In this document: piece by piece, positions 3,001-31,567 of the stretch
Layout of the letters: the number at the start of each line of letters is the position of its first letter
Position numbering within the stretch: the stretch's first letter is position 1
Origin: an uncultured Clostridia bacterium
Lineage (GTDB): Bacteria; Bacillota; Clostridia; TANB77; CAG-508
NCBI GenBank assembly: GCA_947631335.1
Contig: CANRKZ010000010.1
Location: 1-37,093, forward strand
Direction: 5' to 3'
Length of the DNA: 37,093 bases
Notes under the pieces: model-generated
Databases searched by the model: none
Told to the model about the DNA's origin: nothing
The model's input: only the letters and a program-made list of their open reading frames with translations
Translations under genes and position numbers: made by a program

Positions 3001-3569
3001 TAAAAAAATCTGGAATTCAGTTTGCAATGATTAGATGTGGATATAGGGGATACAGAAATCCAAGAATTGTGATGGATAGTAAATTTGATGAAAATATTCG
3101 AAATGCATCTGCAGTTGGAATAAAGGTAGGAATATATTTCTTTAGTCAAGCAGTATCAATTTCGGAAGCAGTTGAAGAAGCAAATTATGCTGTTAATTTA
3201 GCTAAAAAATATAATTGTGTTACATATCCGATAGCAATAGATACAGAATCATCTGGTGCTGATAATCATGATGGTAGGGCAGATGTAATAGGAACAGCAT
3301 TAAGAACAAATGTAATAGCAGCTTTTTGTAACCAAGTAAGTAATTTAGGTTACAAACCTATGATTTATGCAAGTAGAGATTGGCTTTATTATAATTTAGA
3401 AATAACAAGGCTCTTATCTTATGAAACATGGCTTGCCCATTATACGGGAAGTCCATCTATCAAAAGTAATTATAGGTATAATTATACAATGTGGCAATAT
3501 ACATCATCAGGTTCTATTTCTGGAATAAATAGTAATGTTGATATGAATATAGGATATAAAAAATATTAA
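12..3569 (+). CDS. Secreted ChW-repeat protein with C-terminal GH25 (lysozyme/muramidase) domain
   Basis: N-terminal signal peptide (MKIRKIISTIITLTILLSTILPTITLAE), Asn/Glu/Lys-rich low-complexity linker, about 15 ChW repeats (Y-x-x-H-x-Q-x-x-G-W...G-T-x-G-x-x-x-R-I-E-A-I-x-I), C-terminal GH25 signature YKGIDVSEFNGTIDWQSVKKSGIQFAMIRCGYRG...YPIAIDTES...TMWQYTSSG. Confidence 0.93.
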   Translation: MKIRKIISTIITLTILLSTILPTITLAENELKDRIKDNNVVEERQQMENNDINKDNFDSGVDIEESMTNQNIDNKENIDNKTEQNIEDNKSIKQNKDVIEKSTSVNNDESNESEQNIKKIPNLQNAKILYSSHIEGNGWEKEFSKKDGELSGTEGQSKRIEAIKIALGNAEEIKENANIKYQVHVQDYGWMNWKQNGQVAGTEGQSKRIEAIKIELKGMEGYSVIYKVHIQDKGWSKWCNNGETAGTEGEGKRIEAIQIKIVRNPKIEINYTYNEEKNIVKAEITSDKELDYISDSSWKLSEDKLTYTKEYDVNDIYPITVRDIDGIKSNLEVNITQVVEPNSMVKYSSHIEGNGWEKEFSKKDGELSGTEGQSKRIEAIKIALGNAEEIKENANIKYQVHVQDYGWMNWKQNGQVAGTEGQSKRIEAIKIELKGMEGYSVIYKVHIQDKGWSKWCNNGETAGTEGEGKRIEAIQIKIVRNPKIEINYTYNEEKNIVKAEITSDKELDYISDSSWKLSEDKLTYTKEYDVNDIYPITVRDIDGIKSNLEVNITQVVEPNSMVKYSSHIQGDGWEKKFSKIDGDTSGTEGQNKGIEAIRISLGNSEEIKESASIKYQVHVQNYGWMDWRKNGEVAGTEGENKRIEAIKINIEGLDGYCVEYRTYTEGTGWQKWKSDGEISGTVGESKKIEAIQIRVVKKENKTIEPSVEYQISVKKDEWQEKVPENKIAGTTGKAIKALKIELKGANEESSIQYKVYTSNNWQNWVNNGEETQIKEQSKSVEAIQIKLNNLEGYSVEYRVQISGYGWQKWRKNGEVAGTINEGKMIEAIQIRVVYNTSEILEPEVSYQAYVQEEGWKEETIEGFAAGTEGQGKRIEALKINISDVDSSAKIKYRTHVEDIGWQAWVKNGTMTGTTGQSKRIEAIEIKLEGLDDYTVEYQVHIQDYGWSDWMIDGETAGTTGKGKRIEAIRIKIVPKYYRSYKGIDVSEFNGTIDWQSVKKSGIQFAMIRCGYRGYRNPRIVMDSKFDENIRNASAVGIKVGIYFFSQAVSISEAVEEANYAVNLAKKYNCVTYPIAIDTESSGADNHDGRADVIGTALRTNVIAAFCNQVSNLGYKPMIYASRDWLYYNLEITRLLSYETWLAHYTGSPSIKSNYRYNYTMWQYTSSGSISGINSNVDMNIGYKKY
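399..1700 (+). repeat. Tandem direct duplication, 2 x 651 bp (399-1049 and 1050-1700), in frame (217 aa) inside the ChW/GH25 gene
   Basis: Copies match by eye apart from about 2 substitutions (ttcgcat/ttcacat; gagttgtct/gagttatct). The spurious antisense ORFs 499-780 and 1150-1431 translate identically, which confirms the 651-bp offset. Confidence 0.95.
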
Positions 3570-3576
3570 GATTTAA

Positions 3577-3612
3577 GCTAGTAGTTTATGGGAAAAACTA
3601 CTAGCATTTTTT
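3577..3612 (+). terminator. Rho-independent terminator after the GH25 gene
   Basis: GCTAGTAGTTT-atggga(aa)-AAACTACTAGC followed by ATTTTTTG. Confidence 0.85.
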
Positions 3613-3624
3613 GTCGAAAAAAGA

Positions 3625-3653
3625 TTGAAAAAGATAAAATGTAGTGATAAAAT
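3625..3653 (+). promoter_or_regulatory. Putative sigma-A promoter for the second ChW gene
   Basis: TTGAAA - 17 nt - TAAAAT, about 40 bp upstream of the ATG at 3693. Confidence 0.5.
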
Positions 3654-3692
3654 ATGAATGAATAAGATTGAAACAAAAAAGGGGGTACTAAA

Positions 3693-6600
3693 ATGAATAT
3701 AAGAAGAACAATATCGATAATAACTTTTTTTATCATTGTTTCAAGTGTATTTATACCTACTACAACATTAGCATTAGATGAAATAAAAGAGATAGATAAT
3801 ACTATAAAAGAAGAGGAGGAAATAATTCAGGACGATATTAAAAATAAGGAAAACAAACAAGAAAATACTACAAAAGATGAGAAAAAAACTGAAGACAGTT
3901 CAAAAAATGAAGATGTAGAAAAAGAAGAAAACGATACAAATAAAAATGATAATAAATTAGATGAAAATATAGAAGAAAAAGAAAATATAAAAAAGAACAC
4001 AACAGATAATAATACAACAAAAATAATAGAACAGGAATTAAATTCTACAACACAACCATTGATGAGCACAAAAGATGAAAATATTGAAGCAGCATTATCA
4101 GTTTCTTATAGAACACATGTACAAGAAGAAGGATGGCAAGAATATGTAAAAGATGGACAAACATCAGGAACATCAGGAAAAGGGCTAAGATTAGAAGCAA
4201 TTAATATACAGTTATCGAATAATACAAGTGAAAATATAAATATTAAGTATCAAGTCCATGTACAAGATATAGGTTGGCAAGATTGGAAACAAAATGGTGA
4301 ACTGTCAGGAACATCAGGAAAAGGGCTAAGATTAGAAGGTATTAGAATTTGCTTGGATAGTTCTGAAGAATATTCAATTATGTATAGAGTCCATGTACAA
4401 GATATAGGTTGGCAAGATTGGAAAATAGATGGAGAAATGGCAGGAACATCTGGAAAATCCTTAAGATTAGAAGCAATAGAAATTAAAATAGTTAAAAAAC
4501 AAAAAAAAGGAATGTTATGTATAGAAACACCAACTAATGAAAGTACATATTATAATTCAGAAACTTCTAATATAACGGTTAAAGGATGGAAGATGGCAAA
4601 TGTATCAGATACCTATATAAAAGCATATGTAAATGATACACAAATTGATTCTGAAACAATTAAATATGATGAAAGACCTGATATAATAAAAGAAATAACC
4701 AATTACGGAACAGCAATCCAAAATCCAATACCAGGATATGAGTTTAACATTGATGTTTCCAAGCTAAAAGACGGCTTTAATACAATAAAAATAGACTTGT
4801 TTTCTGATAGTACAAAACTAGAAACAAAGAGTATAACAATTAAGTGGGATAAAAATTTACATGTACAATATAACACACATGTACAAGAAGAAGGATGGCA
4901 AGATTGGAAAACAGATGGAGAAATGGCAGGAACATCAGGAAAAGGCCTAAGATTGGAAGCAATGAATATAAAGTTACTAAATAATCAAAATGAAAATTTG
5001 AATATAAAATACCAAGTACATGTTCAATCTGAAGGATGGCAAGATTGGAAACAAAATGGTGAACTAGCAGGAACATCAGGGAAAGGATTAAGACTAGAAG
5101 CTATTAAAATTTACTTAGATAGCTCTAAAGACTATTCAATTATGTACAGAGTACATGTTCAAGATGAAGGATGGCAAGATTGGAAAACAGATGGAGAAAT
5201 GGCAGGAACGTCAGGAAAATCCTTAAGATTAGAAGCAATAGAAATTAAAATAGTAGAGAAAAAAATAAAAAGTAGGATGTGTATAGAAACACCGACGAAT
5301 GGAAGAACATATTATAATTTGGAAACTTCTAATATAACCGTCACAGGATGGAAAATGGCAGATGTATCAGATACTTATATAAAAGCATATATGGATAATA
5401 AAGCAATCGATTCTACATCTATTAAATATAATAAAAGACCAGACATAATAAGAGAAATAACTGATTATGGAACAGAAATACAAAATCCAACACCAGGTTA
5501 TAGCTTTAATGTTGATTTTTCAAATTTAGAAGGTGGAAATCATACCATAAAAATTGAAATGTGGTATAAAGATAAACTTTTAACAACGGATAGTACAACA
5601 TTTTATTTGGATACCAATATACATATTAAATATAGTGCACACGTAGAAGATATAGGATGGCAAGAATATGTAGAAGATGGAGCAATCATAGGAACAATGG
5701 GAAAAGAACTAAGGATAGAAGCTTTAAAGATTCAATTAATAAATGCACCATCCACCGTACATATTAAATATAAATCTTATGTTCAAGGTAAGTGGTCAGA
5801 TTATGTAAGAGATGGACAAGAAACAGGAACAACAGGAAAAGGATTGAGATTAGAAGCTATTCAAATAGAAATAGAAGGAGCAGAAAGATATAGTGTAGAA
5901 TATAGATCACATGTTCAAAATATTGGATGGCAATCTTGGGCTTCGAATGGTATGGGGTCTGGAACAAAAGATCAATGGTTAAGGCTAGAAGCATTACAAA
6001 TAAGAATAGTAAAAACAGAAAATACAGTTGTGCCAAAGGTAAAATATTCTAGCCATAATGCATTAAATGGTTGGATGCAATATTGTGAAAATGGTGTTAT
6101 ATCCGGAAGTACAAACAATGGAACAAAATTAGATGCTATAAAAATTGGACTAGAAAATAGCAGTACAGCACATATAAAATACAGTGTGCATGTCCAAAAC
6201 ATAGGTTGGCTAGAGAATGTACAGGATAATGACCAAGCAGGAACAAGTAGTTCGGCAAATGGTATAGAAGCCATTAAAATTGAATCAGATGGATTAAGTG
6301 GATATTCTATAGAATATAGAGTCTATATAATTGGAAAAGGATGGCAGGATTGGAAATATGATGGAGAAGTAGCGGGAACTACAGGTCAAAGCCTACAAAT
6401 TAGTGCTATTCAAATAAAAATAGGAATAAAAACATATGTAAAAAAACCAAATTCCTCAAATTTTTCAACCTTAGATGAATCAAAATATCCAGGATTTAAA
6501 CAAGCATTGCAACAATTACAAAGTAAATATCCAAATTGGACATTAAAGATAGTGTATACAGGTTTAAAATGGAATGATGTTTTAGATGCAGAAGAACGAT

Positions 6601-7331
6601 ATAGCAATGGTGAACCATATAGTTTGACACAGGAAACAGGAAATTGGAGAGATTCTTCAGATAAAAATTCATATCAAGGAGGATGGTACAAGGCATCAAG
6701 AGCAGCAATAGCTTATATGATGGATCCACGAAATAGCTTAGACCAGTATTATGTTTTTCAATTTCAAAATTTAAATACATCTTCAATAGAAAATGTTGAA
6801 AATGTCTCTGCTATGACGAATGGAACATATTTACAAAATTATTGCAATACTATAGTAGAAGCATCTAAAAGTTATAATGTTAGTGCGTTTCATTTAGCTT
6901 CAAGAATGATATTAGAGCAAGGAACATCAGGATGGAGTGTTAATGGATACCAATATAATGGTGTAACCGTATACAACTATGCTAATATTAAAGCAACTGG
7001 AAAAACAGATAAAGATATAGCAGAAAGTGGAGCAGCATATGCATGGTCTAATAAATGGTTTACACCGGAATTTTGTATAAACGGAACAGCTAAGTGGATT
7101 TATGATAATTATTTAAGCAATGGACAAAACACAAAATATTTTGAAAAGTATAATGTGGTAGCACAGCCATTTTATACACACCAATATATGCAAAATATTA
7201 GAGCAGCAAATGATGAAGGAAAAAACACAGCAAAAAGTCTTGAAAGTCGTGGATTACTAGATTATCCTTATGAATTTTTAATACCAGTTTACGAAGATAT
7301 GCCATCATCTGCTTGCCCAAGACCTAACTAA
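3693..7331 (+). CDS. Secreted ChW-repeat protein with Ig-like inserts and C-terminal glucosaminidase-type (peptidoglycan hydrolase) domain
   Basis: Signal peptide, K/E/N-rich linker, about 12 ChW repeats, two copies of an Ig-like segment (ETPTN..TYYN.ETSNITV.GWKMA.VSDTYIKAY), C-terminal segment typical of clostridial endo-beta-N-acetylglucosaminidase-like proteins (YPNWTLKIVYTGLKWNDVLDAE...FHLASRMILEQGTSGWSVNG...YNYANIKATG). RBS gggggt upstream. Confidence 0.88.
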   Translation: MNIRRTISIITFFIIVSSVFIPTTTLALDEIKEIDNTIKEEEEIIQDDIKNKENKQENTTKDEKKTEDSSKNEDVEKEENDTNKNDNKLDENIEEKENIKKNTTDNNTTKIIEQELNSTTQPLMSTKDENIEAALSVSYRTHVQEEGWQEYVKDGQTSGTSGKGLRLEAINIQLSNNTSENINIKYQVHVQDIGWQDWKQNGELSGTSGKGLRLEGIRICLDSSEEYSIMYRVHVQDIGWQDWKIDGEMAGTSGKSLRLEAIEIKIVKKQKKGMLCIETPTNESTYYNSETSNITVKGWKMANVSDTYIKAYVNDTQIDSETIKYDERPDIIKEITNYGTAIQNPIPGYEFNIDVSKLKDGFNTIKIDLFSDSTKLETKSITIKWDKNLHVQYNTHVQEEGWQDWKTDGEMAGTSGKGLRLEAMNIKLLNNQNENLNIKYQVHVQSEGWQDWKQNGELAGTSGKGLRLEAIKIYLDSSKDYSIMYRVHVQDEGWQDWKTDGEMAGTSGKSLRLEAIEIKIVEKKIKSRMCIETPTNGRTYYNLETSNITVTGWKMADVSDTYIKAYMDNKAIDSTSIKYNKRPDIIREITDYGTEIQNPTPGYSFNVDFSNLEGGNHTIKIEMWYKDKLLTTDSTTFYLDTNIHIKYSAHVEDIGWQEYVEDGAIIGTMGKELRIEALKIQLINAPSTVHIKYKSYVQGKWSDYVRDGQETGTTGKGLRLEAIQIEIEGAERYSVEYRSHVQNIGWQSWASNGMGSGTKDQWLRLEALQIRIVKTENTVVPKVKYSSHNALNGWMQYCENGVISGSTNNGTKLDAIKIGLENSSTAHIKYSVHVQNIGWLENVQDNDQAGTSSSANGIEAIKIESDGLSGYSIEYRVYIIGKGWQDWKYDGEVAGTTGQSLQISAIQIKIGIKTYVKKPNSSNFSTLDESKYPGFKQALQQLQSKYPNWTLKIVYTGLKWNDVLDAEERYSNGEPYSLTQETGNWRDSSDKNSYQGGWYKASRAAIAYMMDPRNSLDQYYVFQFQNLNTSSIENVENVSAMTNGTYLQNYCNTIVEASKSYNVSAFHLASRMILEQGTSGWSVNGYQYNGVTVYNYANIKATGKTDKDIAESGAAYAWSNKWFTPEFCINGTAKWIYDNYLSNGQNTKYFEKYNVVAQPFYTHQYMQNIRAANDEGKNTAKSLESRGLLDYPYEFLIPVYEDMPSSACPRPN
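4100..5623 (+). repeat. Diverged tandem repeat of about 762 bp (ChW triplet plus Ig-like domain, two copies)
   Basis: gtatagaaacacc(a/g)ac(t/g)aatg at about 4519 and 5281 (offset 762 bp), each flanked by homologous ChW triplets. Outer boundaries are approximate. Confidence 0.8.
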
Positions 7332-7546: not shown

Positions 7547-8662
7547 ATGATAGATTTTAATGTACCAACGTATGTTGGAAAAGAAAAAGAATATATAAGT
7601 AAAGCAATTGATAATAAAAAAATATGTGGAGATGGAGAATTTACAAAAAAATGTCATAAATGGTTAAATGAAAAAACAAATTCAAATGTCTTATTAACAA
7701 CTTCTTGTAGTCATGCTTTAGACATGTCAGCAATTTTATCAGATATAAAATCGGGAGATGAAGTAATTATGCCATCTTTTACATTTGTATCAACTGCTGA
7801 TGCATTTGTACTTAGAGGAGCAAAAGTTGTTTTTGTAGATATTAGACCAGACACAATGAACATAAATGAAAAATTAATAGAAGAAGCTATAACAGAAAAA
7901 ACAAGGGCAATTGTACCAGTGCATTATGCAGGAGTAGCGTGTGAAATGGACACAATAATGGAAATTGCCAAAAAACATCACTTATTGGTTATTGAAGATG
8001 CAGCTCAAGGAGTTATGAGTGAATATAAAGGAAAACCACTCGGAACAATGGGTGATTATGGATGTTATAGTTTTCACGAAACTAAAAATTATAGTATGGG
8101 CGAAGGTGGAGCTTTATTAGTAAAAGACAAAGATAACTTTGAAAGAGCTGAAATAATAAGAGAAAAAGGTACTGATCGCAGCAGATTTTTTAGAGGGCAG
8201 GTTGATAAATATACTTGGGTAGATGCAGGATCTTCTTATTTACCAAGCGATATAAATGCTGCATATTTATATGCACAATTAGAAAAAGCAGAAGATATCA
8301 ATGAAAAGAGATTACACTTATGGGATTTATATTATGAAAGTTTACAAGATGTTAAGAATATAGAATTACCATATATTCCTAAAGAATGTAAACATAATGC
8401 TCACATGTTTTATATTAAAACAAAAAATATGGAGGAAAGAACAAGACTAATAAAATATTTAAAAGAAAATGATATTTTAACTGTATTTCATTATATACCA
8501 TTACATTCATCCCCAGCAGGAAAAAAATATGGAAGATTTAATGGAGAAGATAAGTATACAACTAAAGAAAGTGAGAGATTACTTAGACTTCCAATGTACT
8601 ATGGTTTGAAAGATAAAGAAGTATTAGAAGTTTGTGATAAGATAAAAAAATTCTATAAATAG
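7547..8662 (+). CDS. DegT/DnrJ/EryC1-family PLP aminotransferase, WecE/RffA-like (dTDP-4-amino-4,6-dideoxyhexose transaminase)
   Basis: PLP lysine context SFHETKNYSMGEGGALL; N-terminal IDFNVPTYVGKEKEYISKAIDNKKICGDGEFTKKC resembles the RffA/WecE family. ATG at 7547 follows gggggag and is preferred over 7517. Confidence 0.88.
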   Translation: MIDFNVPTYVGKEKEYISKAIDNKKICGDGEFTKKCHKWLNEKTNSNVLLTTSCSHALDMSAILSDIKSGDEVIMPSFTFVSTADAFVLRGAKVVFVDIRPDTMNINEKLIEEAITEKTRAIVPVHYAGVACEMDTIMEIAKKHHLLVIEDAAQGVMSEYKGKPLGTMGDYGCYSFHETKNYSMGEGGALLVKDKDNFERAEIIREKGTDRSRFFRGQVDKYTWVDAGSSYLPSDINAAYLYAQLEKAEDINEKRLHLWDLYYESLQDVKNIELPYIPKECKHNAHMFYIKTKNMEERTRLIKYLKENDILTVFHYIPLHSSPAGKKYGRFNGEDKYTTKESERLLRLPMYYGLKDKEVLEVCDKIKKFYK

Positions 8663-8676
8663 GAGTAAGCTAAATT

Positions 8677-9807
8677 ATGAAAGGTAAAATAGTAATAATA
8701 GGAGCAAATGATTTTCAAAATCAATTAATACTAAAAGCAAAAAGTCTAGGTTATGAAACACATGTATTTGCGTGGAAAGATGGAGCCATTGGAGAAAAAA
8801 CAGCAGATTATTTCTATCCAATAAGTATTGTTGAAAAAGAAGAAATTCTAAAAAAGTGTAGAGAAATTAATCCAGATGGAATATGCTCTATTGCATCTGA
8901 TTTAGCAACAATCACGGTTAATTATGTAGCAGAAAAATTAGGACTTCCTTGTAATCCAACTTCAATTACATTGCAATGTACAAACAAATATGAAATGCGA
9001 AAAAAAATGAAAGAAAATGATGTTAAAACACCAGGATTTATAAAGTTAAGTAATGATATTTCAACCTGGAAAATAAAAGATCTAGTATTTCCTATAATAG
9101 TTAAACCAACAGATAGATCAGGAAGTAGAGGAATAACTAAGGTATTTAATAAAGAAGATTTAGATAAGGCAGTACATTATGCAACAAAAGATTCTTTTGA
9201 AAAAATGGCAATAGCTGAAGAATATATAGAAGGAGACGAATATAGTTGTGAATGTATTTCATATAAAGGTAAACATTATTTTTTAGCCTTTACAAAAAAA
9301 TACACAACCGGTTCGCCAAATTTTATAGAAACTGCTCATGAAGAACCATCCGATATAAGTGAAGAAATTCAAAATGAGATTAAAGAAAATATATTTAAAG
9401 CATTAACAGCATTAGGAATAGAAAATGGAGCAAGTCATACAGAATTTAAAGTAGATAAAAATGGAAAATTTGGTATTATCGAAATCGGAGCTAGAATGGG
9501 TGGAGATTGTATAGGATCAGATTTAGTTCAAATATCTACAGGATATGATTTTATAAAAATGGTTATTGATGTAGCAGTAGGAAATAAACCAGACTTTACA
9601 AAAATAACAAAACCAACAAAAGCAGTCATAAAATTTATATTTACAGAAAAAGATTTGGAAGAAATGAAGAAATTTAAGCAAGAACATCCAGACCAGATTT
9701 ATAGAATTAGTGATATGCAATTAGAAAATTTAGGAAAGACGACTGATAGCTCAAGTAGAATAGGATATTATATTTATACACCAGAAAAAAATAACAAATT
9801 ATCTTAA
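8677..9807 (+). CDS. ATP-grasp domain ligase (carbamoyl-phosphate synthase-like ATP-grasp fold)
   Basis: Preceding-domain motif IVIIGANDFQNQLILKAKSLGY, FPIIVKPTDRSGSRGI, EEYIEGDEYSCECI, IEIGARMGGDCIGSDLV metal/ATP motifs. Confidence 0.85.
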   Translation: MKGKIVIIGANDFQNQLILKAKSLGYETHVFAWKDGAIGEKTADYFYPISIVEKEEILKKCREINPDGICSIASDLATITVNYVAEKLGLPCNPTSITLQCTNKYEMRKKMKENDVKTPGFIKLSNDISTWKIKDLVFPIIVKPTDRSGSRGITKVFNKEDLDKAVHYATKDSFEKMAIAEEYIEGDEYSCECISYKGKHYFLAFTKKYTTGSPNFIETAHEEPSDISEEIQNEIKENIFKALTALGIENGASHTEFKVDKNGKFGIIEIGARMGGDCIGSDLVQISTGYDFIKMVIDVAVGNKPDFTKITKPTKAVIKFIFTEKDLEEMKKFKQEHPDQIYRISDMQLENLGKTTDSSSRIGYYIYTPEKNNKLS

Positions 9808-9846
9808 ATTAAGATGAGTATTATTAAAAATATAAAGGAGGAAACA

Positions 9847-10851
9847 ATGATATTAATAGTAGGAGGAACAGGATATATTGGAAGATATTTATCAATATAT
9901 CTAAAGGAAAAAGGATATGATGTTTTAGCATTAGGTAGGTCTAATAAAGTAAAAGATTTTTTTGATGATAATAACATAAATTTTCAAATATTCAATATCG
10001 AAAATGACGAAGATTTTAAAAAATTACCAACACAAAATATTGAAGCAATTATTAATTTAGCAGCTTGTTTAGCTGAACATGAAACACCTGTTGAAAAATT
10101 TTTTGATATAAATACGATAGGAACTTATAAAATATTAGAATTTGCAAGAAAGAATAATATTAAAAAGGTTATTATGACTTCTAGTCATAAAGTATATAAT
10201 GCAGTAGAGAAAAAAGGACCAATATCTGAGGAAGATAGAGTATGTTTCCAAGGAGATCATACTCCATATATAATATCTAAAATTGCTGCAGAACATTTTA
10301 TGGAATATTATCATAAAGAATTTGGATTAGATACTATTTCTCTAAGATTAACTGGAGTTCATGGATATGGAGAAATATTAGGTTTCTTAACGAAAGAAGG
10401 GGATTATACAAAAAGTACATTTGAAATATTTGTTGAAAAAGCATTAAAAGGTGAAGATATTGAAGTTTGGGGAAAAAATGATATAAAAAGAGATCATGTA
10501 TATATCAAAGATGTTTTATATGCTTTAGAATGTTCTATCAAAGCGAATGATATAAGTGGCATTTTTAATATTGCATCAGGTAAAGGATATACTTTATATG
10601 AAGAAGCTCAAATTATTGCTAAAGTATTTGCAACAGATAAAGGAGAATCCAAAGTAACATTGAATGAAAATAAACCAGGATTATCAAGAGGATATGTGTA
10701 TAAAATAGATAAAGCTAAAAAAGCTTTAAATTGGGAACCAAAATTTGATGACTATGAAACTATGTTAAGAGACTATAAAAAAGAATGGAAAGAGAAAAAA
10801 TTTAAAAATTATCATAATGTAAAAAAAGGACAAGAACCAGTAACATTCTAA
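9847..10851 (+). CDS. NAD(P)-dependent nucleotide-sugar epimerase/dehydratase (extended SDR)
   Basis: GGTGYIGRYLSIYL Rossmann motif, YISK active site (TPYIISKIAAEHF). ATG at 9847 has RBS aaaggagg; the ORF-track start at 9814 is less likely. Confidence 0.87.
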   Translation: MILIVGGTGYIGRYLSIYLKEKGYDVLALGRSNKVKDFFDDNNINFQIFNIENDEDFKKLPTQNIEAIINLAACLAEHETPVEKFFDINTIGTYKILEFARKNNIKKVIMTSSHKVYNAVEKKGPISEEDRVCFQGDHTPYIISKIAAEHFMEYYHKEFGLDTISLRLTGVHGYGEILGFLTKEGDYTKSTFEIFVEKALKGEDIEVWGKNDIKRDHVYIKDVLYALECSIKANDISGIFNIASGKGYTLYEEAQIIAKVFATDKGESKVTLNENKPGLSRGYVYKIDKAKKALNWEPKFDDYETMLRDYKKEWKEKKFKNYHNVKKGQEPVTF

Positions 10852-11882
10852 TGGATATAACAAAGTTAAGAAAAAATAGTCTCTTTGTTGGCAGAGCAGC
10901 CACAGCTATATATTTAATATTAAATACTTTAATGAAAGAAAAAGATGTAATATTACCAAGTAATATATGTTATGCAGCTGTATATCCTATTATTTATTCT
11001 GGAAATATTCCTGTTTTTGTAGATATAGATAAAAAAACAGGAAATGCTTCATTTAAAGAAATAATAAAAAAAGTAAATAAAAATACAGGAGCCATTATTT
11101 TCCCTTATATGTATGGCAATGTGTCCAAAGATATACTTAAATTAAAAAAATATTGCAATCTTCATAATATTATTTTAATTGAAGATTGCGCATCTGCCAT
11201 GGGTGCCAATATAGGTGATTATAAAGTTGGTAGTGTAGGTGATTATTCTATATTTAGCACTGGTCATGCAAAAATAATTGATGTTGGTAATGGAGGAGTT
11301 TTATTATCAGATAATAATATTGATGAAATAATAGATAATTATAATAAATTGGATTTATATAATGATGAGATAGAGAGAAAACTAGACGAATTTTCAAAAA
11401 AATATAGACAATTGCGTAATGATGGAGATAATGAAAAAGTTAAAGATTTCTTTAACAGTGATTATAGAAAATTATTTATATATAAAATTGATAAATCAGT
11501 TATAGATAAAATGAAAAAAGAAATTTCAAATTTTGAAAATATTAATAAAGAAAGAATAGAAAAGTATAATCTGTTTATAAAAAATCTTCAAAAAAGTAAT
11601 AAATATAAGATATTAAAATTTCAAGATGGATCAAATCCTTGGCGCTTTACTTTATTAGTAAAAAATGACAAAGATAGAAAAGAGTTAATACAAATATTAT
11701 TAGAAAACAAATTATTTGTAAGTGATTGGTATCCATGTATTGGAAAATCATTTTCAGATAATGTCTATCCAAACAGTGATTATATGGAAAAAAGAATATT
11801 AAACTTTTCCTTAACAGATGATGAAAAAAACATACTAGAAATATGCAAAATAATAAATAACTATTTTAAGGGGAGTAAATAA
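10851..11882 (+). CDS. Divergent DegT/DnrJ/EryC1-family aminotransferase-like protein
   Basis: DVILPSNICYAAVYPIIYSGNIPVFVDID, LIEDCASAMGA, FSTGHAKIIDVGNGGVLLS (K and GxGG spacing of the family retained). Start overlaps the upstream stop. Confidence 0.78.
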   Translation: MDITKLRKNSLFVGRAATAIYLILNTLMKEKDVILPSNICYAAVYPIIYSGNIPVFVDIDKKTGNASFKEIIKKVNKNTGAIIFPYMYGNVSKDILKLKKYCNLHNIILIEDCASAMGANIGDYKVGSVGDYSIFSTGHAKIIDVGNGGVLLSDNNIDEIIDNYNKLDLYNDEIERKLDEFSKKYRQLRNDGDNEKVKDFFNSDYRKLFIYKIDKSVIDKMKKEISNFENINKERIEKYNLFIKNLQKSNKYKILKFQDGSNPWRFTLLVKNDKDRKELIQILLENKLFVSDWYPCIGKSFSDNVYPNSDYMEKRILNFSLTDDEKNILEICKIINNYFKGSK

Positions 11883-11884
11883 AA

Positions 11885-12844
11885 ATGAAAAAAATAAGTT
11901 TTGTTATACCATGTTATGGTAGTGAAAAAACGATAGGTATTGTAATTAACGAAATAGATACTATTGTTAATCAAAATAAAGAATATGATTATGAAATAAT
12001 AGCTATTAATGATAAATCTCCAGATAATGTATGGCAAGTTTTGAAAGAAATTGCGAGTAAAAATAAAAAGGTAAAACTAATTAACTTAGCCAAAAACATG
12101 AATAGACCAGGAGCGGTTATGGCAGGGTTATCAGTTGTTTCGGGAGATTATATAATAATTATGGATGATGATGGACAATGTCCTATAGAAAATCTATGGA
12201 ATTTAATAAAACCATTAGAAGATGGACATGATGTTTCGATGGCTAAATATACACAATATAAGCAAAGTATATTTAAGAGTTTTGGTACAATTGTAAATAG
12301 AAAAATGACAGAAATTATAATGGAGAAACCAAAAGATTTAAATTTTACAAACTTTATGGCATTACAAAGATATATAGTGGAAGAAATTAAAAAATATAAA
12401 AATCCATATCCATATCTTACAGGTCTATTACTTAGAACTACAAGTGATATGGTAAATGTGAAAATGGAAGAAAGAAAAAGAATAAGTGGAAATACTAATT
12501 TTACATTTAAGAAAATGCTTAATTTATGGCTAAATGGATTTACTGCATTTTCAATAAAACCATTAAGAATTTCAACAATATTGGGAGTTATAACAGCTAT
12601 ATTTGGATTCGGTTATGGAATATATATAATAATTTTAAAATTACTTATTAGCTCAATAACAGTAGAAGGATATAGTTCTATAATGGCTGTATTACTATTT
12701 ATTGGTGGTATCATAATGATGATGTTAGGAATGATTGGAGAATATATAGGAAGAATTTATATAAGTATAAATAATTCACCACAATATGTAATAAAAGAAA
12801 CGATAAATATGGACAAAGGAGAAGAAGATGAAAAAAATAAATAA
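11885..12844 (+). CDS. GT2 glycosyltransferase with two C-terminal TM helices (polyprenyl-phosphate sugar transferase, ArnC/GtrB/DPM-like)
   Basis: ISFVIPCYGSEKTIGIVI, NDKSPDNVW, DYIIIMDDDGQCP, ISGNTNFTFKKM, two C-terminal hydrophobic segments. Confidence 0.88.
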   Translation: MKKISFVIPCYGSEKTIGIVINEIDTIVNQNKEYDYEIIAINDKSPDNVWQVLKEIASKNKKVKLINLAKNMNRPGAVMAGLSVVSGDYIIIMDDDGQCPIENLWNLIKPLEDGHDVSMAKYTQYKQSIFKSFGTIVNRKMTEIIMEKPKDLNFTNFMALQRYIVEEIKKYKNPYPYLTGLLLRTTSDMVNVKMEERKRISGNTNFTFKKMLNLWLNGFTAFSIKPLRISTILGVITAIFGFGYGIYIIILKLLISSITVEGYSSIMAVLLFIGGIIMMMLGMIGEYIGRIYISINNSPQYVIKETINMDKGEEDEKNK

Positions 12845-13172
12845 ATACATACTTTCTTTACACCTATTATTATTTTGCTTTTCATTTTGCGGAGTATTTT
12901 CAAAATTAGCATCACAAAATGAATTTTTATCGATTAAATTCTGTATATTTTATGGAATTTCACTATTCATTCTTGGAATGTATGCAATTTTTTGGCAACA
13001 AATATTAAAGAAAATTTCTTTAACTACAGCATTTTTTAATAAAGCTGTTACAATTATTTGGGGAATGTTATGGGGGGTTCTATTCTTCAGAGAAACCATA
13101 TCAATTAATATGATAATAGGAGCAATAATTGTACTTATAGGTGTAGGATTGGTGGTGAAAGATTATGAATAA
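12828..13172 (+). CDS. Small EamA/SMR-like four-TM membrane protein (ArnE-like)
   Basis: 114 aa, four hydrophobic segments, C-terminal GAIIVLIGVGLVVKD typical of SMR/EamA half-transporters; overlaps the GT2 gene. Confidence 0.75.
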   Translation: MKKINKYILSLHLLLFCFSFCGVFSKLASQNEFLSIKFCIFYGISLFILGMYAIFWQQILKKISLTTAFFNKAVTIIWGMLWGVLFFRETISINMIIGAIIVLIGVGLVVKDYE

Positions 13173-13509
13173 AGTTTTTATATATTCAGGAGTATATATT
13201 TTAGGAGTAATCATTTCAGCATTTGCACAAATATTGTTAAAAAAGTCAGCAAACATAGAAAGAGAAAGTAAAATAAAAGAATATTTAAATTTTAAAACAA
13301 TGTTTGCCTATGGAATATTTTTTGGAGCAACATTATGCACAGTAATTTCCTATCAATATGTACCATTATCTATGGGACCAATTCTTGGGACAACAGAGTA
13401 TATATTTGTAGCAGTCTTAAGTTATTTGCTATTGAAAGAAAAAATTAGTAAGAAAAAACTAATAGGATTAATAACTATAATATTGGGAGTATTAATATTT
13501 TCAATATAA
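13165..13509 (+). CDS. Small EamA/SMR-like four-TM membrane protein (ArnF-like), paired with the preceding ORF
   Basis: 114 aa, SAFAQILLKKSA and LKEKISKKKLIGLITIILGVLIF; overlaps 12828-13172. Confidence 0.78.
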   Translation: MNKVFIYSGVYILGVIISAFAQILLKKSANIERESKIKEYLNFKTMFAYGIFFGATLCTVISYQYVPLSMGPILGTTEYIFVAVLSYLLLKEKISKKKLIGLITIILGVLIFSI

Positions 13510-13525
13510 ATAAAAGGGGGAAAAA

Positions 13526-14908
13526 GTGGAATTAACAGAAAAAACTAAAAAAGCAATAAAAATAACTATAACAATAATATTGGCAATATATGTTTTTTGT
13601 TTATGTTTTGCATGGGCTAAAAACATACCGTTTAACAATGCTCCAGATGAAAAAATGAAATATGATGTATGTGAGTATATTTGTAATAATTTAAAATTAC
13701 CACATGGTGGAGATGAAAGTATAAGAGATCCAATATGGGGGATATCTTATGCATTTACACCCATTCTTTCTTATATGTTTTCAGGAATATTTATGCGAAT
13801 AGCAATACATTTTACACAAAGCGCCTTTGAGATAGTTTTGGCAGCAAGATTTATAAGTATTTTGTGTATGGTAGGATATGTAATTATGAATGCTAAAATA
13901 GGAGATAAATTGTTTAAAGGTGCGTATAAATGGTTATATGTAGCATTTGTAACTTTTTTACCACAAGTAGTATTCTTAGGATCCTATATAAATAATGATT
14001 CATTAGCATTATTATCAATTTCGATAATAGTATATGCATGGATTATTGGATTAGAAAAAGATTGGAACTGGAAATCATGTATATTAATGGCTATAGGAAT
14101 TAGTATTTGTGCATTATCATATTATAATGCTTATGGATATATATTATGCAGTTTATTTATATATTGTATAAGTAGCTATATAAAGAAAATCAATATAAAG
14201 GAATTTTTAAAAAAGGGTATAGTAATAGCATTAATTGTTTTTGCATTAGCAGGATGGTGGTTCGTGAGAAACTTTATATTATATGATGGAGATTTTATAG
14301 GATTAAATGTTTCAAGAGAATATGGAGAACAATATGCATTAAACCAATATAAGCCATCTAATAGAAAAACTCCAGCACATCAAAATATGTCTCTAAAATA
14401 CATGCTTATAGATAAAAAGTGGATAAAAACAACAATACAAAGTTTTATAGGACAATTTGGTTATATGGATATTACAATGGATAAAGTATTTTACAATGGA
14501 TATAAAATTGTAGGAGTCATAGGATTAATAGGAGCAATAGGAGGATTTTTTATTTCAAAAATAATAAGTTTAATAAAAAAAATAAAGAAAAAAACAGAGA
14601 CAAAATATACAGATGAAGAAAGAATAAAAATAAAAGAAAAAATATTATTTACTATTTTAATGGTTATATGTATTATTATTCCAATAATATTAAGTATTTA
14701 TTATTCATATTCTTCAGATTTTCAACCACAGGGAAGATATATAATGCCAATAATTATACCATTTATGTATTTTATTACAAAGGGAATAAAAAATATTTTA
14801 AAATTCGTTATAAGAAATGAGAAAATTCAAAATGTTTTAGTAGGAGTAATTGCATTTATTTGGACAGTAATTCCAATAATAGTATTTATAAAATACATAA
14901 AACGATAA
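13526..14908 (+). CDS. Polytopic membrane protein, GT-C-like / DUF2142-like putative glycosyltransferase
   Basis: GTG start after aaaggggg; first extracytoplasmic loop NNAPDEKMKYDVCEYI, about 10 TM segments, SDFQPQGRYIMPIIIPF. Confidence 0.68.
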   Translation: MELTEKTKKAIKITITIILAIYVFCLCFAWAKNIPFNNAPDEKMKYDVCEYICNNLKLPHGGDESIRDPIWGISYAFTPILSYMFSGIFMRIAIHFTQSAFEIVLAARFISILCMVGYVIMNAKIGDKLFKGAYKWLYVAFVTFLPQVVFLGSYINNDSLALLSISIIVYAWIIGLEKDWNWKSCILMAIGISICALSYYNAYGYILCSLFIYCISSYIKKINIKEFLKKGIVIALIVFALAGWWFVRNFILYDGDFIGLNVSREYGEQYALNQYKPSNRKTPAHQNMSLKYMLIDKKWIKTTIQSFIGQFGYMDITMDKVFYNGYKIVGVIGLIGAIGGFFISKIISLIKKIKKKTETKYTDEERIKIKEKILFTILMVICIIIPIILSIYYSYSSDFQPQGRYIMPIIIPFMYFITKGIKNILKFVIRNEKIQNVLVGVIAFIWTVIPIIVFIKYIKR

Positions 14909-14965: not shown

Positions 14966-14997
14966 AAACGAGTAAAACATTGAAAGGAAGTGTCAAT

Positions 14998-15858
14998 ATG
15001 AAAATATTAATTACAGGAGCAAATGGAATGCTTGCAAAATCTGTAATAAAAAGATTAGAAGGAAATGAATTAATTTGTACAGATGTAGAAGAATTAGATA
15101 TAACAAATCAAGATGCAGTAATAAAATTTGTAGAAAAAATAAAGCCAGAATATATAATAAATTGTGCTGCATATACAGCTGTTGATAAGGCAGAAACCGC
15201 AGGAGAAATAGTAGAAAAAATAAATGCAGATGGACCAACCAATTTAGCAAAAGCTGCAAAACAAGTAGGAGCAGTATTAGTACATATTAGTACAGATTAT
15301 GTATTTGGTGGAAATTTAGATATTGAAAAAGTATATAAAGAAGATGATAAAAAGGAACCAGTAACAGTATATGGAATAACTAAGTTACATGGGGAAGAGA
15401 AAATTCAAGAAAATACAGATAAATATTATATTTTTAGAACTGCATGGTTATATGGAGATGGCAATAACTTTGTAAGAACAATGTTAAAATTAGGAGAATT
15501 AAAAGATGAAATAAGTGTTGTATGTGACCAACATGGATCACCAACATATACAGAAGACTTAGCAAATATTATAGGAGAAGCTATTGAGAAAAAAATACCT
15601 TATGGGGTATATCATGCAACAAATGAAGGATATACAACATGGTATGATTTTACGAAAGCAATATTTGAATTTACAGGAACAATTTGTAATGTTAATCCAG
15701 TAAGTACAGAAGAGTATATTGAAATGATGCAAATAACACAAGCAAAGAGACCAAAGAATTCTCAAATGTCAAAAGAAAAATTAAAAAAAGCAGGAATCAA
15801 TGTTGTAGAATGGGAAGGCGCATTGAAGAGATACTTAAAACAAGAAGGAAAAATGTAA
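14998..15858 (+). CDS. rfbD: dTDP-4-dehydrorhamnose reductase
   Basis: MKILITGANGMLAKSVIKRL, INCAAYTAVDKAE, ISTDYVFGG, YGITKLHGE, FRTAWLYGDGNNFVRTML. ATG at 14998 with RBS gaaaggaag. Confidence 0.93.
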   Translation: MKILITGANGMLAKSVIKRLEGNELICTDVEELDITNQDAVIKFVEKIKPEYIINCAAYTAVDKAETAGEIVEKINADGPTNLAKAAKQVGAVLVHISTDYVFGGNLDIEKVYKEDDKKEPVTVYGITKLHGEEKIQENTDKYYIFRTAWLYGDGNNFVRTMLKLGELKDEISVVCDQHGSPTYTEDLANIIGEAIEKKIPYGVYHATNEGYTTWYDFTKAIFEFTGTICNVNPVSTEEYIEMMQITQAKRPKNSQMSKEKLKKAGINVVEWEGALKRYLKQEGKM

Positions 15859-15934
15859 TTAAAAGAGTAATATAAAAACCATTCTAGTTTCAAAATTTTG
15901 ATATAGAATTTATAACAAAAAAAGGAGAATTAAA

Positions 15935-16825
15935 ATGAAAAATAGAAAAGGAATTATATTAGCAGGAGGAAGTGGAACAAGATTATATCCATTAACACAT
16001 GCAATATCAAAACAAATAATGCCAGTATATGATAAACCAATGATATATTATCCAGTATCAGTATTAATGGAGGCAGGAATAAAAGAGGTTTTAATTATAT
16101 CAACACCAAGAGATATAGTAACTTTTAAAGAACTATTAGGTGATGGATCTAAATGGGGAATGAAATTTGAATATAGAATCCAAGAAAAACCAAACGGATT
16201 AGCAGAAGCATTTATCATAGGAGAAGAATTTATAGGTAAAGACAATGTTGCAATGATTCTAGGAGATAATATGTTTTATGGAGAGCATTTTGCAGAAAAG
16301 TTAAAAGCTGCAAATAGTAGAGAAGAAGAAGCAACAATATTTGGGTATTATGTAAAAGATCCAAGAGCTTATGGAGTAGTAGAAATAAATAAAGATGGAA
16401 AGGCAATATCTATAGAAGAAAAACCACAAGAACCAAAATCAAATTATGCAGTTCCAGGTTTGTATTTCTATACAAATGAAGTAATAGAAATTGCAAAAAA
16501 TGTTAAACCATCTGAAAGAGGAGAATTAGAGATAACATCTGTAAATGATGAGTATATGAAACGTGGTAAGTTAAAAGTAGAAAAATTAGGAAGAGGAATG
16601 ACATGGTTTGATACAGGGACACATGATGCTTTATTAGAAACAGCGAGTTTTGTTCAAACAATAGAGAAAAGACAAGGAATGCAAGTTTGTTGCCCTGAAG
16701 AAATTGCTTATAAACAAGGATGGATAACAAGTGAACAATTATTAGAAATATCACAAAAATATTTAAAAACAGAATATGGAAGATATTTAAAGGATTTAGC
16801 AGAAAATAAATTTGGAGAAGAATAA
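15935..16825 (+). CDS. rfbA: Glucose-1-phosphate thymidylyltransferase
   Basis: [67 protein letters not shown]-type motif. Confidence 0.97.
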
Positions 16826-16866
16826 TTTGGATGACAATTTCGTAGATAAAAAAGGAGTGAAAAGTA

Positions 16867-17448
16867 GTGGGAAAATTTAAAATAGTAGCTACTTCAATTG
16901 ATGGAGTACTTATAATAGAACCAACTGTTTTTGGAGATAATAGGGGCTATTTTATGGAAACATATAGTAAAGCTGATTTTGAAGAAATAGGATTAGATTA
17001 TAATTTTGTACAAGATAATCAATCAAAGTCTAAAAAAGGTGTATTAAGAGGATTGCATTTTCAAAAAGAAAATACACAAGCAAAATTAGTAAGATGTATC
17101 AAAGGAGAAGTATTTGATGTAGCAGTAGATTTAAGACCTGGAAGCAAAACATACGGTAAATGGGAAGGCGTGATTCTTTCAGAAGAAAATAAAAAGATGT
17201 TTATGATTCCAAGAGGATTTGCACATGGATTTTTAGTATTATCAGATGAGGCTGAGTTTACCTATAAATGTGATGACATATATAATCATGAAGCAGAAGG
17301 TGGACTAGCTTGGAATGATCCAGATGTAGCAATTGATTGGCCTTTAGAAGATATAAAAGAATCAGATTTATTGACATCGGAAAAAGATTCTAAATGGCCA
17401 TCATTAAAAGAATTAAGTAAGACTGATTTATTTCGAAACTTAAAATAA
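16867..17448 (+). CDS. rfbC: dTDP-4-dehydrorhamnose 3,5-epimerase
   Basis: FGDNRGYFMETYSKADF, QDNQSKSKKGVLRGLHFQ, VDLRPGSKTYGKWEGV, PRGFAHGFLVLSD. GTG start with RBS aaaggagtg. Confidence 0.96.
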   Translation: MGKFKIVATSIDGVLIIEPTVFGDNRGYFMETYSKADFEEIGLDYNFVQDNQSKSKKGVLRGLHFQKENTQAKLVRCIKGEVFDVAVDLRPGSKTYGKWEGVILSEENKKMFMIPRGFAHGFLVLSDEAEFTYKCDDIYNHEAEGGLAWNDPDVAIDWPLEDIKESDLLTSEKDSKWPSLKELSKTDLFRNLK

Positions 17449-17468
17449 TATAGAAGGAGAATAGAAAA

Positions 17469-18437
17469 ATGAGTAAAAATGTATTAATAACAGGAGCTGC
17501 GGGATTTATAGGAGCAAATTTTGCAGAATATTTTGTAAATAAACATCCAGATTATAGAGTAATAGTAGTAGATAAATTAACATATGCAGGAAATATGGAT
17601 AACTTAAAAAAAGTCAAAGATAAAATAGAATTTGAACAAGTAGATATATGTGATTTTAAAAAAATTAAAGAGATATTTAAAAAATATAATATAAATGGAG
17701 TAATCCATTTTGCAGCAGAATCACACGTTGACAACAGCATAAAAAATCCATTTGTGTTTACTCAAACAAATGTAATAGGAACCCACACATTATTGGAAAC
17801 AGCAAAACAAATTTGGGGAGAAGGTAGCCCTAACAAATTTGTACATATTTCAACAGATGAAGTGTATGGTTCATTAGGCGAAGATGGTTATTTTACAGAA
17901 AAGTCTCCAATAAAACCAAGTAGTCCATATTCATCATCAAAAGCAAGTTCAGATTTAATTGCACTTGCCTATAAGGAAACTTATAAGATGAATGTTAATG
18001 TAACAAATTGTTCAAATAATTATGGACCATACCAACATAACGAAAAACTAATACCACATATGATTAAATTAGCCTTAAATAATGAAAAATTACCAGTATA
18101 TGGTGAGGGACTAAATATAAGAGATTGGCTATATGTCGAAGATCATTGTGAAGCAATCGACTTAGTATTTCATAATGGTGTATCAGGAGAAAGATATAAT
18201 ATAGGTGGGCATAATGAAAGAAGAAATATTGAAATTGTAAAACTAATATTACAAAGATTAGGAAAGTCAGAAGACTTAATTGAACATGTTACAGATAGAA
18301 AAGGACATGATTATCGATATGCTATTGATCCAACTAAGATAAAAAAAGAACTTGGTTGGGAACCAAAAACTAAATTTGAAGATGGAATTGTAAAAACAAT
18401 TGATTGGTATTTAGAAAATCCAGAATGGTTAAAATAG
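17469..18437 (+). CDS. rfbB: dTDP-glucose 4,6-dehydratase
   Basis: NVLITGAAGFIGANFAEYF, LTYAGNMDNL, HFAAESHVDNSI, HISTDEVYGSLG, PYSSSKASSDLI, NCSNNYGPYQ. Confidence 0.97.
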   Translation: MSKNVLITGAAGFIGANFAEYFVNKHPDYRVIVVDKLTYAGNMDNLKKVKDKIEFEQVDICDFKKIKEIFKKYNINGVIHFAAESHVDNSIKNPFVFTQTNVIGTHTLLETAKQIWGEGSPNKFVHISTDEVYGSLGEDGYFTEKSPIKPSSPYSSSKASSDLIALAYKETYKMNVNVTNCSNNYGPYQHNEKLIPHMIKLALNNEKLPVYGEGLNIRDWLYVEDHCEAIDLVFHNGVSGERYNIGGHNERRNIEIVKLILQRLGKSEDLIEHVTDRKGHDYRYAIDPTKIKKELGWEPKTKFEDGIVKTIDWYLENPEWLK

Positions 18438-18476: not shown

Positions 18477-19217
18477 ATGCAGAAAGGCAAAGAAGATAGA
18501 ATAGTTGTTGAACATGTTTATAAAACATTCAAAATATATATGGATAAGGCTAATAGTTTGAAGGAAAAATTGCTATTTTGGAATAGAAATAAAAAAGAAA
18601 CAAGAGAAGTATTAAAAGATATAAATTTAACAATTAAAAATGGAGAAGCAGTTGCTCTTATAGGAATAAATGGTAGCGGAAAATCAACACTATTAAAACT
18701 AATGACCAAAATAATATATCCTAATAAAGGAAGTATAACAACATATGGCAAATTAACTTCACTTCTTGAATTAGGAGCTGGATTTCATCCGGATTTTTCT
18801 GGAAGAGAAAATATATATTTTAATGCATCAATATTTGGACTTACTAAAAAGCAAATAGATGAGAGAATAGATAAAATTATAGAATTTTCTGAATTAGGTT
18901 CATTTATTGATAATCCAGTAAGAACATATTCTTCTGGTATGTATATGAGATTAGCATTTGCTGTTGCAATAAATGTAGATGCTGATATATTACTAGTTGA
19001 TGAAATACTAGCAGTAGGAGATCAACACTTTCAAGAAAAATGTATTGAAAAAATGAAGGAATTAAAAGAACAAGGAAAAACCATGGTTTTTGTAACACAT
19101 AGTATGAACACAGTAAAAGAATTTTGCAGTAGAGCGGTGTGGCTAAGTAATGGTGTAGTAAAAATGGATGGAGAACCAAATGATGTAATAGAAAAATATT
19201 TAAAGGAGACTTTATAA
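18477..19217 (+). CDS. Polysaccharide ABC exporter ATP-binding protein (Wzt/TagH/KpsT-like, no C-terminal binding domain)
   Basis: Walker A GINGSGKST, signature YSSGMYMRLAFA, Walker B DILLVDEILAVGD. 246 aa in total. Confidence 0.93.
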   Translation: MQKGKEDRIVVEHVYKTFKIYMDKANSLKEKLLFWNRNKKETREVLKDINLTIKNGEAVALIGINGSGKSTLLKLMTKIIYPNKGSITTYGKLTSLLELGAGFHPDFSGRENIYFNASIFGLTKKQIDERIDKIIEFSELGSFIDNPVRTYSSGMYMRLAFAVAINVDADILLVDEILAVGDQHFQEKCIEKMKELKEQGKTMVFVTHSMNTVKEFCSRAVWLSNGVVKMDGEPNDVIEKYLKETL

Positions 19218-19991
19218 ATGAAATTAGCAAAAGAATTATATAATTATAGGGAATTATTAAAGACTAATATAACTAAAGATGTTGGAGGTAAATATAAAAA
19301 TTCATTTTTAGGCGTTTTATGGTCTTTTGTAAACCCACTTTTACAAATAGCAGTATACGCATTAGTATTCCAAGTAATACTAAGGAGTAATATAGAAAAT
19401 TATGCAGTATATTTGTGTTGTGGATTAATTCCATGGCAATATTTTAGTAACGTTGTCTTACGAGGAGCTGCAACTATTATTGATAATGGAAATATCATAA
19501 AAAAAGTGTATTTTCCTAGAGAAATTTTACCAATATCAGTTGTAACTAGTGAAGGAGTAAACTTTTTGATTTCTACTATAATAATAATTGGATTTGTAAT
19601 ATTTGGAGGAATAGGACTATCAGCAAATATCTTTTGGTATTTTCTAATATTAGCAATACAATATGTAGTCTCTATAGGAATTGCGTTTATTGTATCAAGT
19701 TTAACAGTATATTTTAGAGATTTATTACATCTTTTAGGTGTATTTATGCAATTATTATTTTATGCAACACCAATTGTATATTCAATTACTGATGTACCAG
19801 CAGGTTTTCAATGGTTATTAAAACTAAATCCAATGACATATTTAATAGATGGTTATAGATCAATATTTTATAATAAAACAATGCCAAATTTTGATTATCT
19901 GTTAATAGCTTTGGTAATGGGGATTGTATTATGTGTTATAGGATATTTTATGTTTAAAAAATTACAAAAAGGATTTGCAGAGGAGTTGTAA
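19218..19991 (+). CDS. Polysaccharide ABC exporter permease (Wzm/TagG-like, ABC-2 type)
   Basis: YRELLKTNITKDVGGKYKNSFLGVLWSFVNPLLQIAVYALVF, LNPMTYLIDGYRSIFY; multiple TM segments. Start overlaps the upstream stop. Confidence 0.93.
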   Translation: MKLAKELYNYRELLKTNITKDVGGKYKNSFLGVLWSFVNPLLQIAVYALVFQVILRSNIENYAVYLCCGLIPWQYFSNVVLRGAATIIDNGNIIKKVYFPREILPISVVTSEGVNFLISTIIIIGFVIFGGIGLSANIFWYFLILAIQYVVSIGIAFIVSSLTVYFRDLLHLLGVFMQLLFYATPIVYSITDVPAGFQWLLKLNPMTYLIDGYRSIFYNKTMPNFDYLLIALVMGIVLCVIGYFMFKKLQKGFAEEL

Positions 19992-24253: not shown

Positions 24254-24679
24254 ATGAAGAAAATAGAAGAATTGATTAAGAAAGTATGTACAAGAGAAAT
24301 GATTTTATATATTACTTTTGGAATACTTACAACATTAGTAAACTTAGGATCATTTTATGTAATGAATACATTTTTTCATTGGGAGGAGAATATATCTAAC
24401 TTTATAGCTATATTATTAGCAGTTCTTTTCGCATATGTAACAAATAAAGATTTAGTTTTTCATTCAGAGGCTCAATCTTTAAAAGAAAAAATTCAGGAAT
24501 TTTGTAAGTTTATATTAGGAAGAGCATTTACTATGATAGTGGAATTCGTAGGAGGATTTGTATTATTTAAACTTCCAATTCCTAATATCATTACCAAAAT
24601 GGTACTTACTATAATTGTGATTATTTTAAATTTCTTTATCAGCAAATTTTTTGCTTTTAGAAGTAAAAAAGATAATTAA
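24254..24679 (+). CDS. GtrA-like four-TM membrane protein
   Basis: YITFGILTTLVNLGSFYVMN, FAYVTNKDLVF, FFISKFFAFRS: GtrA family layout. Confidence 0.88.
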   Translation: MKKIEELIKKVCTREMILYITFGILTTLVNLGSFYVMNTFFHWEENISNFIAILLAVLFAYVTNKDLVFHSEAQSLKEKIQEFCKFILGRAFTMIVEFVGGFVLFKLPIPNIITKMVLTIIVIILNFFISKFFAFRSKKDN

Positions 24680-24701
24680 TCTAGAAAGAAGGAAGTAAAA
24701 A

Positions 24702-30543: not shown

Positions 30544-31567
<1,024 letters not shown>

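Follow-up and report, generated by a model that had tools for sequence, protein, structure and literature searches.

Gene content of the locus

We examined a window of 37,093 nucleotides, which is contig C10 of a low-GC, Clostridia-like genome assembly (G000: 1.2 Mb, 54 contigs, 92% complete; statements on the whole genome rest on single-family searches at this completeness), and focused on a candidate glycosylation module at positions 7547-14908. The module comprised eight open reading frames (ORFs), all on the forward strand and tightly packed, some of them overlapping, in the order WecE aminotransferase, ATP-grasp ligase (hereafter ATPG), SDR enzyme, second DegT-family enzyme, membrane GT2, SMRa, SMRb and GT-C protein (Table 1). 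An earlier interpretation made from the DNA letters alone (the sequence-only reading) had named these genes in this place and with this packing, but miscounted them as seven.

The product of the first gene scored 640 bits against TIGR02379 (curated cut-off 435), in agreement with the WecE-like label that it had been given, and its closest solved structures were WecE entries (4piw/4zah and 6blg). Its assignment to the WecE family is strong, and its predicted activity, the synthesis of dTDP-4-amino-4,6-dideoxy-D-galactose (dTDP-Fuc4N), is well supported by it. The sequence-only reading also placed rfbA and rfbB downstream. Both were found (as rmlA and rmlB), but they form part of a full set of four dTDP-rhamnose genes, with starts at 14995 (rmlD), 15935 (rmlA), 16867 (rmlC) and 17469 (rmlB). 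The rmlD product matched TIGR01214 (286 bits, cut-off 224), while the other three were named from sequence and position rather than from individual family scans. RmlA and RmlB would also provide the substrate of WecE.

The SDR gene probably starts at 9847 rather than at 9814. According to the alignment, its product has the catalytic YxxxK motif and lacks the dehydratase DE pair that is present in the RmlB of the window. Close SDR homologues outside the window were found only in three loci (L020, L025 and L037), and in these, as in the window, they co-occurred with the second DegT enzyme, in which the pyridoxal phosphate lysine and the aspartate were conserved. Two further homologues of the second DegT (L079 and G425) were also near ATPG, so that all five homologues found are located beside or near that gene. 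The family and neighbourhood data indicate that the SDR and the second DegT are an optional pair linked to ATPG, which may modify the acid or produce a different amine.

The ATP-grasp ligase

ATPG matched the Pfam family PF13535. A structure model built from 35 homologues (pLDDT 90.4) had the L-amino-acid ligase BL00235 as its best structural match (3vot; TM-score 0.81), and the next structural matches were 4dim, RizA and BacD, with RizA and BacD within the top seven. The profile search agreed with the structure search and matched BL00235 at 1.6e-41. In its modelled fold ATPG is most like the bacterial L-amino-acid ligases, and nothing in this check indicated an unrelated function. BL00235, RizA and BacD make dipeptides, whereas for ATPG we propose a sugar amine as substrate. 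The C-terminal domain of these ligases (PF18603, LAL_C2) had no match in the window ATPG in the Pfam scan; it was matched in a relative of ATPG from Enterococcus hirae.

From the model and the profile, the acyl group used by ATPG is probably an amino acid. It could instead be a non-amino acid (e.g. a hydroxy or dicarboxylic acid), with the rest of the module working as proposed and no positive charge reaching the surface. ATP-grasp enzymes use many acids, and 4dim, annotated as a phosphoribosylglycinamide synthetase, is a divergent profile match of ATPG; but amino-acid ligases come first in both the structural and the profile search, and we regard a non-amino acid as somewhat unlikely.

Four loci (L032, L049, L053 and L077) carried one or two extra, divergent ATP-grasp genes at the ATPG locus, and two of these (L032 and L049) a hexapeptide acyltransferase as well. 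Such genes might point to a longer or acetylated substituent.

GT2, the SMR pair and the GT-C protein

The GT2 protein, with a PF00535 domain, has two hydrophobic stretches near its C-terminus. Its best NCBIfam matches were PgfS (167 bits, cut-off 500) and ArnC (151 bits), neither of which reached its cut-off. SMRa (33.8 bits) and SMRb (43.6 bits) passed the EamA cut-off (PF00892; 28.2 bits) and matched ArnE weakly, far below its cut-off. For the large polytopic protein, PMT_2 was the only Pfam match and lay slightly under its cut-off; the "DUF2142-like" label of the sequence-only reading is nevertheless right, since the homologue of this protein in locus L013 is over the DUF2142 cut-off.

The polytopic protein was modelled with 17 homologues (pLDDT 92.9), and when the model was compared with known structures by Foldseek, the matches were GT-C glycosyltransferases (OST/STT3, ALG9, Pmt4, AglB, PglB, ArnT and EmbC), with TM-scores of about 0.4-0.55. 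GT-C enzymes commonly carry a catalytic acid after the first transmembrane helix, and a PDE motif at this position (P40 D41 E42) was invariant in the 17 GT-C sequences. The protein thus models as a GT-C glycosyltransferase and, judged by their families, GT2, the two SMR proteins and GT-C form a lipid-carrier glycosylation set with predicted activities.

The acceptor of this set could also be protein: GT-C might glycosylate secreted proteins, such as the adjoining ChW-repeat proteins, as in Streptococcus mutans Pgf, and not a polysaccharide. The best score of GT2 was to PgfS, a YfhO-type protein of L020 is weakly similar to PgfM1/PgfM2, and protein glycosyltransferases are among the matches of the GT-C model. 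ChW-protein genes lie directly upstream of the module in the window, L020 has large genes of similar start upstream, and L012 has ChW-like ORFs near the module. Nevertheless, the scores against PgfS and PgfM fall far short of the cut-offs, ChW genes are also located on other contigs of the genome (C1, C14, C21 and C45), and the modules often adjoin polymer exporters or other glycan genes, so we judge a protein acceptor unlikely.

In locus L018 (13800-17055) we observed a tandem pair of GT-C genes with 83.6% DNA identity. Both were split at the identical point into overlapping ORFs that match residues 22-116 and 121-458 of the window GT-C; a conserved split or recoding, or a shared break, is possible.

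Conservation of the module

ATPG orthologues were present in 6 of the 196 genomes of the order, each beside WecE or one gene from it, and WecE itself in 9 of the 196 (hypergeometric P about 1e-9, relatedness ignored). Two weaker ATP-grasp hits (G106, 40%; G039, 35%) were rejected as paralogues, having other DegT enzymes nearby and no SMR pair seen.

In a GTDB scan for ATPG we kept 80 of 168 relatives. Most came from metagenome-assembled genomes of gut Clostridia and some from isolates; the set also included Treponema ruminis and three records with a Saccharibacteria label. We read 75 of the ATPG loci and found WecE within six genes in 64 and the SMR pair in 44. When the count was restricted to the 41 loci flanked on each side by 6 kb or more, WecE was found in 34, the membrane GT2 in 28, the SMR pair in 25 and the polytopic protein in 33, and all four partners in 17; these counts are descriptive, since ATPG was the basis for choosing the loci and the loci are not independent of one another by descent. 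The gene order was shuffled among loci, which favours functional linkage over the simple inheritance of one arrangement. The conserved synteny on which the sequence-only reading depended is therefore found in many gut Clostridia, although in no fixed order, and the arrangement recurs across Clostridia beyond chance.

Named records bearing ATPG were Hespellia stercorisuis, Faecalicatena contorta, Mediterraneibacter massiliensis and Treponema ruminis, with WecE seen next to ATPG in all except M. massiliensis; their existence makes testing in culture possible. Plasmid-borne relatives of ATPG occur together with a DegT aminotransferase in Bacteroides finegoldii and in a capsule locus of Enterococcus hirae. 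The three records titled Candidatus Saccharibacteria (L022, L025 and L026) have the module and are placed next to Clostridia on the WecE tree; they may be wrongly labelled or have received the module by transfer.

Exchange of the ligase for an acetyltransferase

Two genomes (G188 and G090) had WecE but no ATPG, and their locus consisted of WecE-GNAT-GT2-SMR with a DUF6056 protein nearby. The GNAT of G188 (L108), the one GNAT tested, scored 101.1 bits against PseH (cut-off 93.1), whose named reaction is the acetylation of a 4-amino-4,6-dideoxy sugar. When WecE loci were sampled across the class, ATPG or GNAT again recurred near WecE, and some of the other loci had a divergent ATP-grasp gene or a hexapeptide transferase. 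Over the 99 rows of the WecE tree, ATPG was near WecE in 67 and GNAT in 9; one row (T. ruminis, with a weak GNAT score) had both and 22 had neither, and the tree implied about five exchanges between ATPG and GNAT.

A GNAT in the ATPG slot suggests that Fuc4N is N-acylated before lipid loading, and the simplest reading of the swap, judged from these sequences, is acylation of the sugar amine by ATPG. The swap thus supports the N-acylation that the sequence-only reading had suggested for the ATP-grasp ligase; the aminoacylation and the zwitterionic or amino-acid-decorated wall polysaccharide that it also raised may hold but go beyond what the swap supports. That ATPG is merely co-located and modifies a different glycan building block, not Fuc4N, is quite unlikely: in some ATPG loci WecE is missing from the surrounding 6 kb, and in G425 it lies on a different contig from a DegT2-ATPG-GT2 set, but ATPG and WecE are strongly linked despite the shuffled order and the PseH-like GNAT occupies the same slot.

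Proposed route

Taken together, we consider it likely that the locus encodes a multi-component transmembrane glycosylation module for N-acylated Fuc4N. In the proposed route, RmlA/RmlB and WecE would make dTDP-Fuc4N, the well supported step. ATPG would activate a carboxylic acid, for which an amino acid is the likeliest candidate, and form an amide with the sugar 4-amine, a step in which we have moderate confidence. The membrane GT2, as its family suggests, would load the acylated sugar onto polyprenyl phosphate, the SMR pair would flip the lipid-linked sugar, and GT-C, on the strength of its modelled fold, would move the sugar to a surface acceptor, plausibly the polymer of the neighbouring ABC transporter. 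The SDR and the second DegT would be an optional addition, modifying or providing one of the substrates. Lipid A is an unlikely acceptor, since lpxC was not found in the genome by single-family search.

Several observations weigh against this route. The identity between ATPG and BL00235 is 24%, and 7 of the 41 full-context ATPG loci had no WecE. Neither ATPG nor GNAT was near WecE in 22/99 loci, so acylation by these enzymes is not universal, though several of the 22 had a divergent ATP-grasp gene or a hexapeptide transferase, or were cut by a contig end. The route leaves the SDR and the second DegT without explanation, and a LytR-CpsA-Psr (LCP) ligase that would anchor the polymer was not found in the 92% complete genome.

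A more specific version, which we put forward tentatively and hold to be somewhat short of probable, is that gut Clostridia carry a cassette in which ATPG aminoacylates Fuc4N before lipid loading, flipping by an Arn-like pair and attachment at the surface, giving free amino groups, with the aminoacylation being exchangeable; in loci with a second ATP-grasp gene the product may be a peptidyl sugar. If true, common gut bacteria would have a route for tagging their surface sugars with amino acids, parallel to the D-alanylation of teichoic acids and to Ara4N on lipid A. Free surface amino groups would be expected to influence how cationic antimicrobial peptides, phages and host lectins bind, and the occurrence of ligase or acetyltransferase in the same slot is a built-in natural control that makes the idea directly testable.

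Comparison with known systems

The module shares the WecE aminotransferase family with the enterobacterial common antigen, whose synthesis includes N-acetylation of Fuc4N and its incorporation into a repeat unit. In contrast, the module has an ATP-grasp ligase in the acyl slot and seems to attach its sugar on the outer side of the membrane.

The module resembles the Arn pathway (ArnBCADTEF) in the proposed loading of an amino sugar onto polyprenyl phosphate, in its SMR pair and in the predicted transfer by a GT-C enzyme, but has a WecE-type dTDP sugar and not UDP-Ara4N, and lacks a deformylase. The ArnC + ArnE/ArnF + ArnT logic of the sequence-only reading holds as a mechanism and fails as pathway membership, which we rejected because the ArnE, ArnC and ArnB scores were far below cut-off and the genome had no lpxC hit. 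Among the eight module proteins, to which this search was confined, we found no ArnA or ArnD beyond a weak similarity of the SDR domain to ArnA.

Other parallels are the CsbB-GtcA-YfhO-type systems, in which a membrane GT-A acting on polyprenyl phosphate, a small flippase and a GT-C decorate Gram-positive surface polymers (PMC8035078, PMC7389260). As in these, a membrane GT-A, a predicted flippase and a GT-C are encoded together in the module; the module differs in its WecE-made sugar and its own acylating enzyme. The flippases listed in the review of multi-component systems are of GtrA or Wzx types (PMC8035078, PMC7389260), whereas the module has the EamA/SMR pair and the GtrA-like protein of the window lies apart, at 24254. 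A pentofuranose system of Citrobacter also has three components, and its transporter ORF14 was compared with EmrE and ArnE, but it differs in its pentofuranose donor, single transporter gene, GT136 enzyme and Gram-negative O-antigen (PMC11127046). Finally, a Clostridium butyricum capsule locus has predicted dTDP-Fuc4N genes together with a TagGH-type exporter and rhamnose genes, and a term search of the paper text found no mention of an ATP-grasp ligase (PMC12342839). The accessible literature yielded neither a description of the cassette nor a paper on ATP-grasp aminoacylation of Fuc4N or Qui4N, the latter being weak evidence as most subscription papers were outside the search.

Surrounding genes

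The region directly upstream of the module (12-7331) encodes two large proteins with ChW repeats, of which the first also has a GH25 domain. On the other side, the ABC exporter is followed by further glycosyltransferases, and the end of the glycan cluster (24254-25652) holds a second lipid-carrier set, formed by a GtrA-like protein and a PgfS-like GT2 (319.6 bits, cut-off 500).

Table 1. Predicted features of the module and of the adjoining glycan genes in the window.
Feature	Coordinates	Strand	Basis
WecE, dTDP-4-amino-4,6-dideoxy-D-galactose (Fuc4N) aminotransferase (predicted)	7547..8662	+	TIGR02379; nearest structures WecE
ATP-grasp ligase ATPG, proposed N-acylation of the sugar 4-amine	8677..9807	+	PF13535, structure model, profile, synteny, GNAT replacement
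SDR (GalE/epimerase family), optional	9847..10851	+	PF01370, alignment
Second DegT-family PLP enzyme, shortened N-terminus, optional	10851..11882	+	PF01041
Membrane GT2, predicted polyprenyl-phosphate sugar transferase	11885..12844	+	PF00535; NCBIfam below cut-off
SMRa, EamA/SMR half-transporter, predicted flippase subunit, 114 aa	12828..13172	+	PF00892
SMRb, EamA/SMR half-transporter, predicted flippase subunit, 114 aa	13165..13509	+	PF00892
GT-C glycosyltransferase (modelled), DUF2142-like	13526..14908	+	Structure model, Foldseek, DUF2142 homologue
rmlD, rmlA, rmlC, rmlB, dTDP-rhamnose genes	14995..18437	+	rmlD TIGR01214; others by translated sequence and position
ABC polymer exporter: Wzt/TagH-like ATPase and Wzm-like permease	18477..19991	+	Pfam and NCBIfam matches

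Further downstream, mreB (30556-31567) was present as two overlapping ORFs matching model positions 2-54 and 77-325, which suggests a frameshift or an assembly error.

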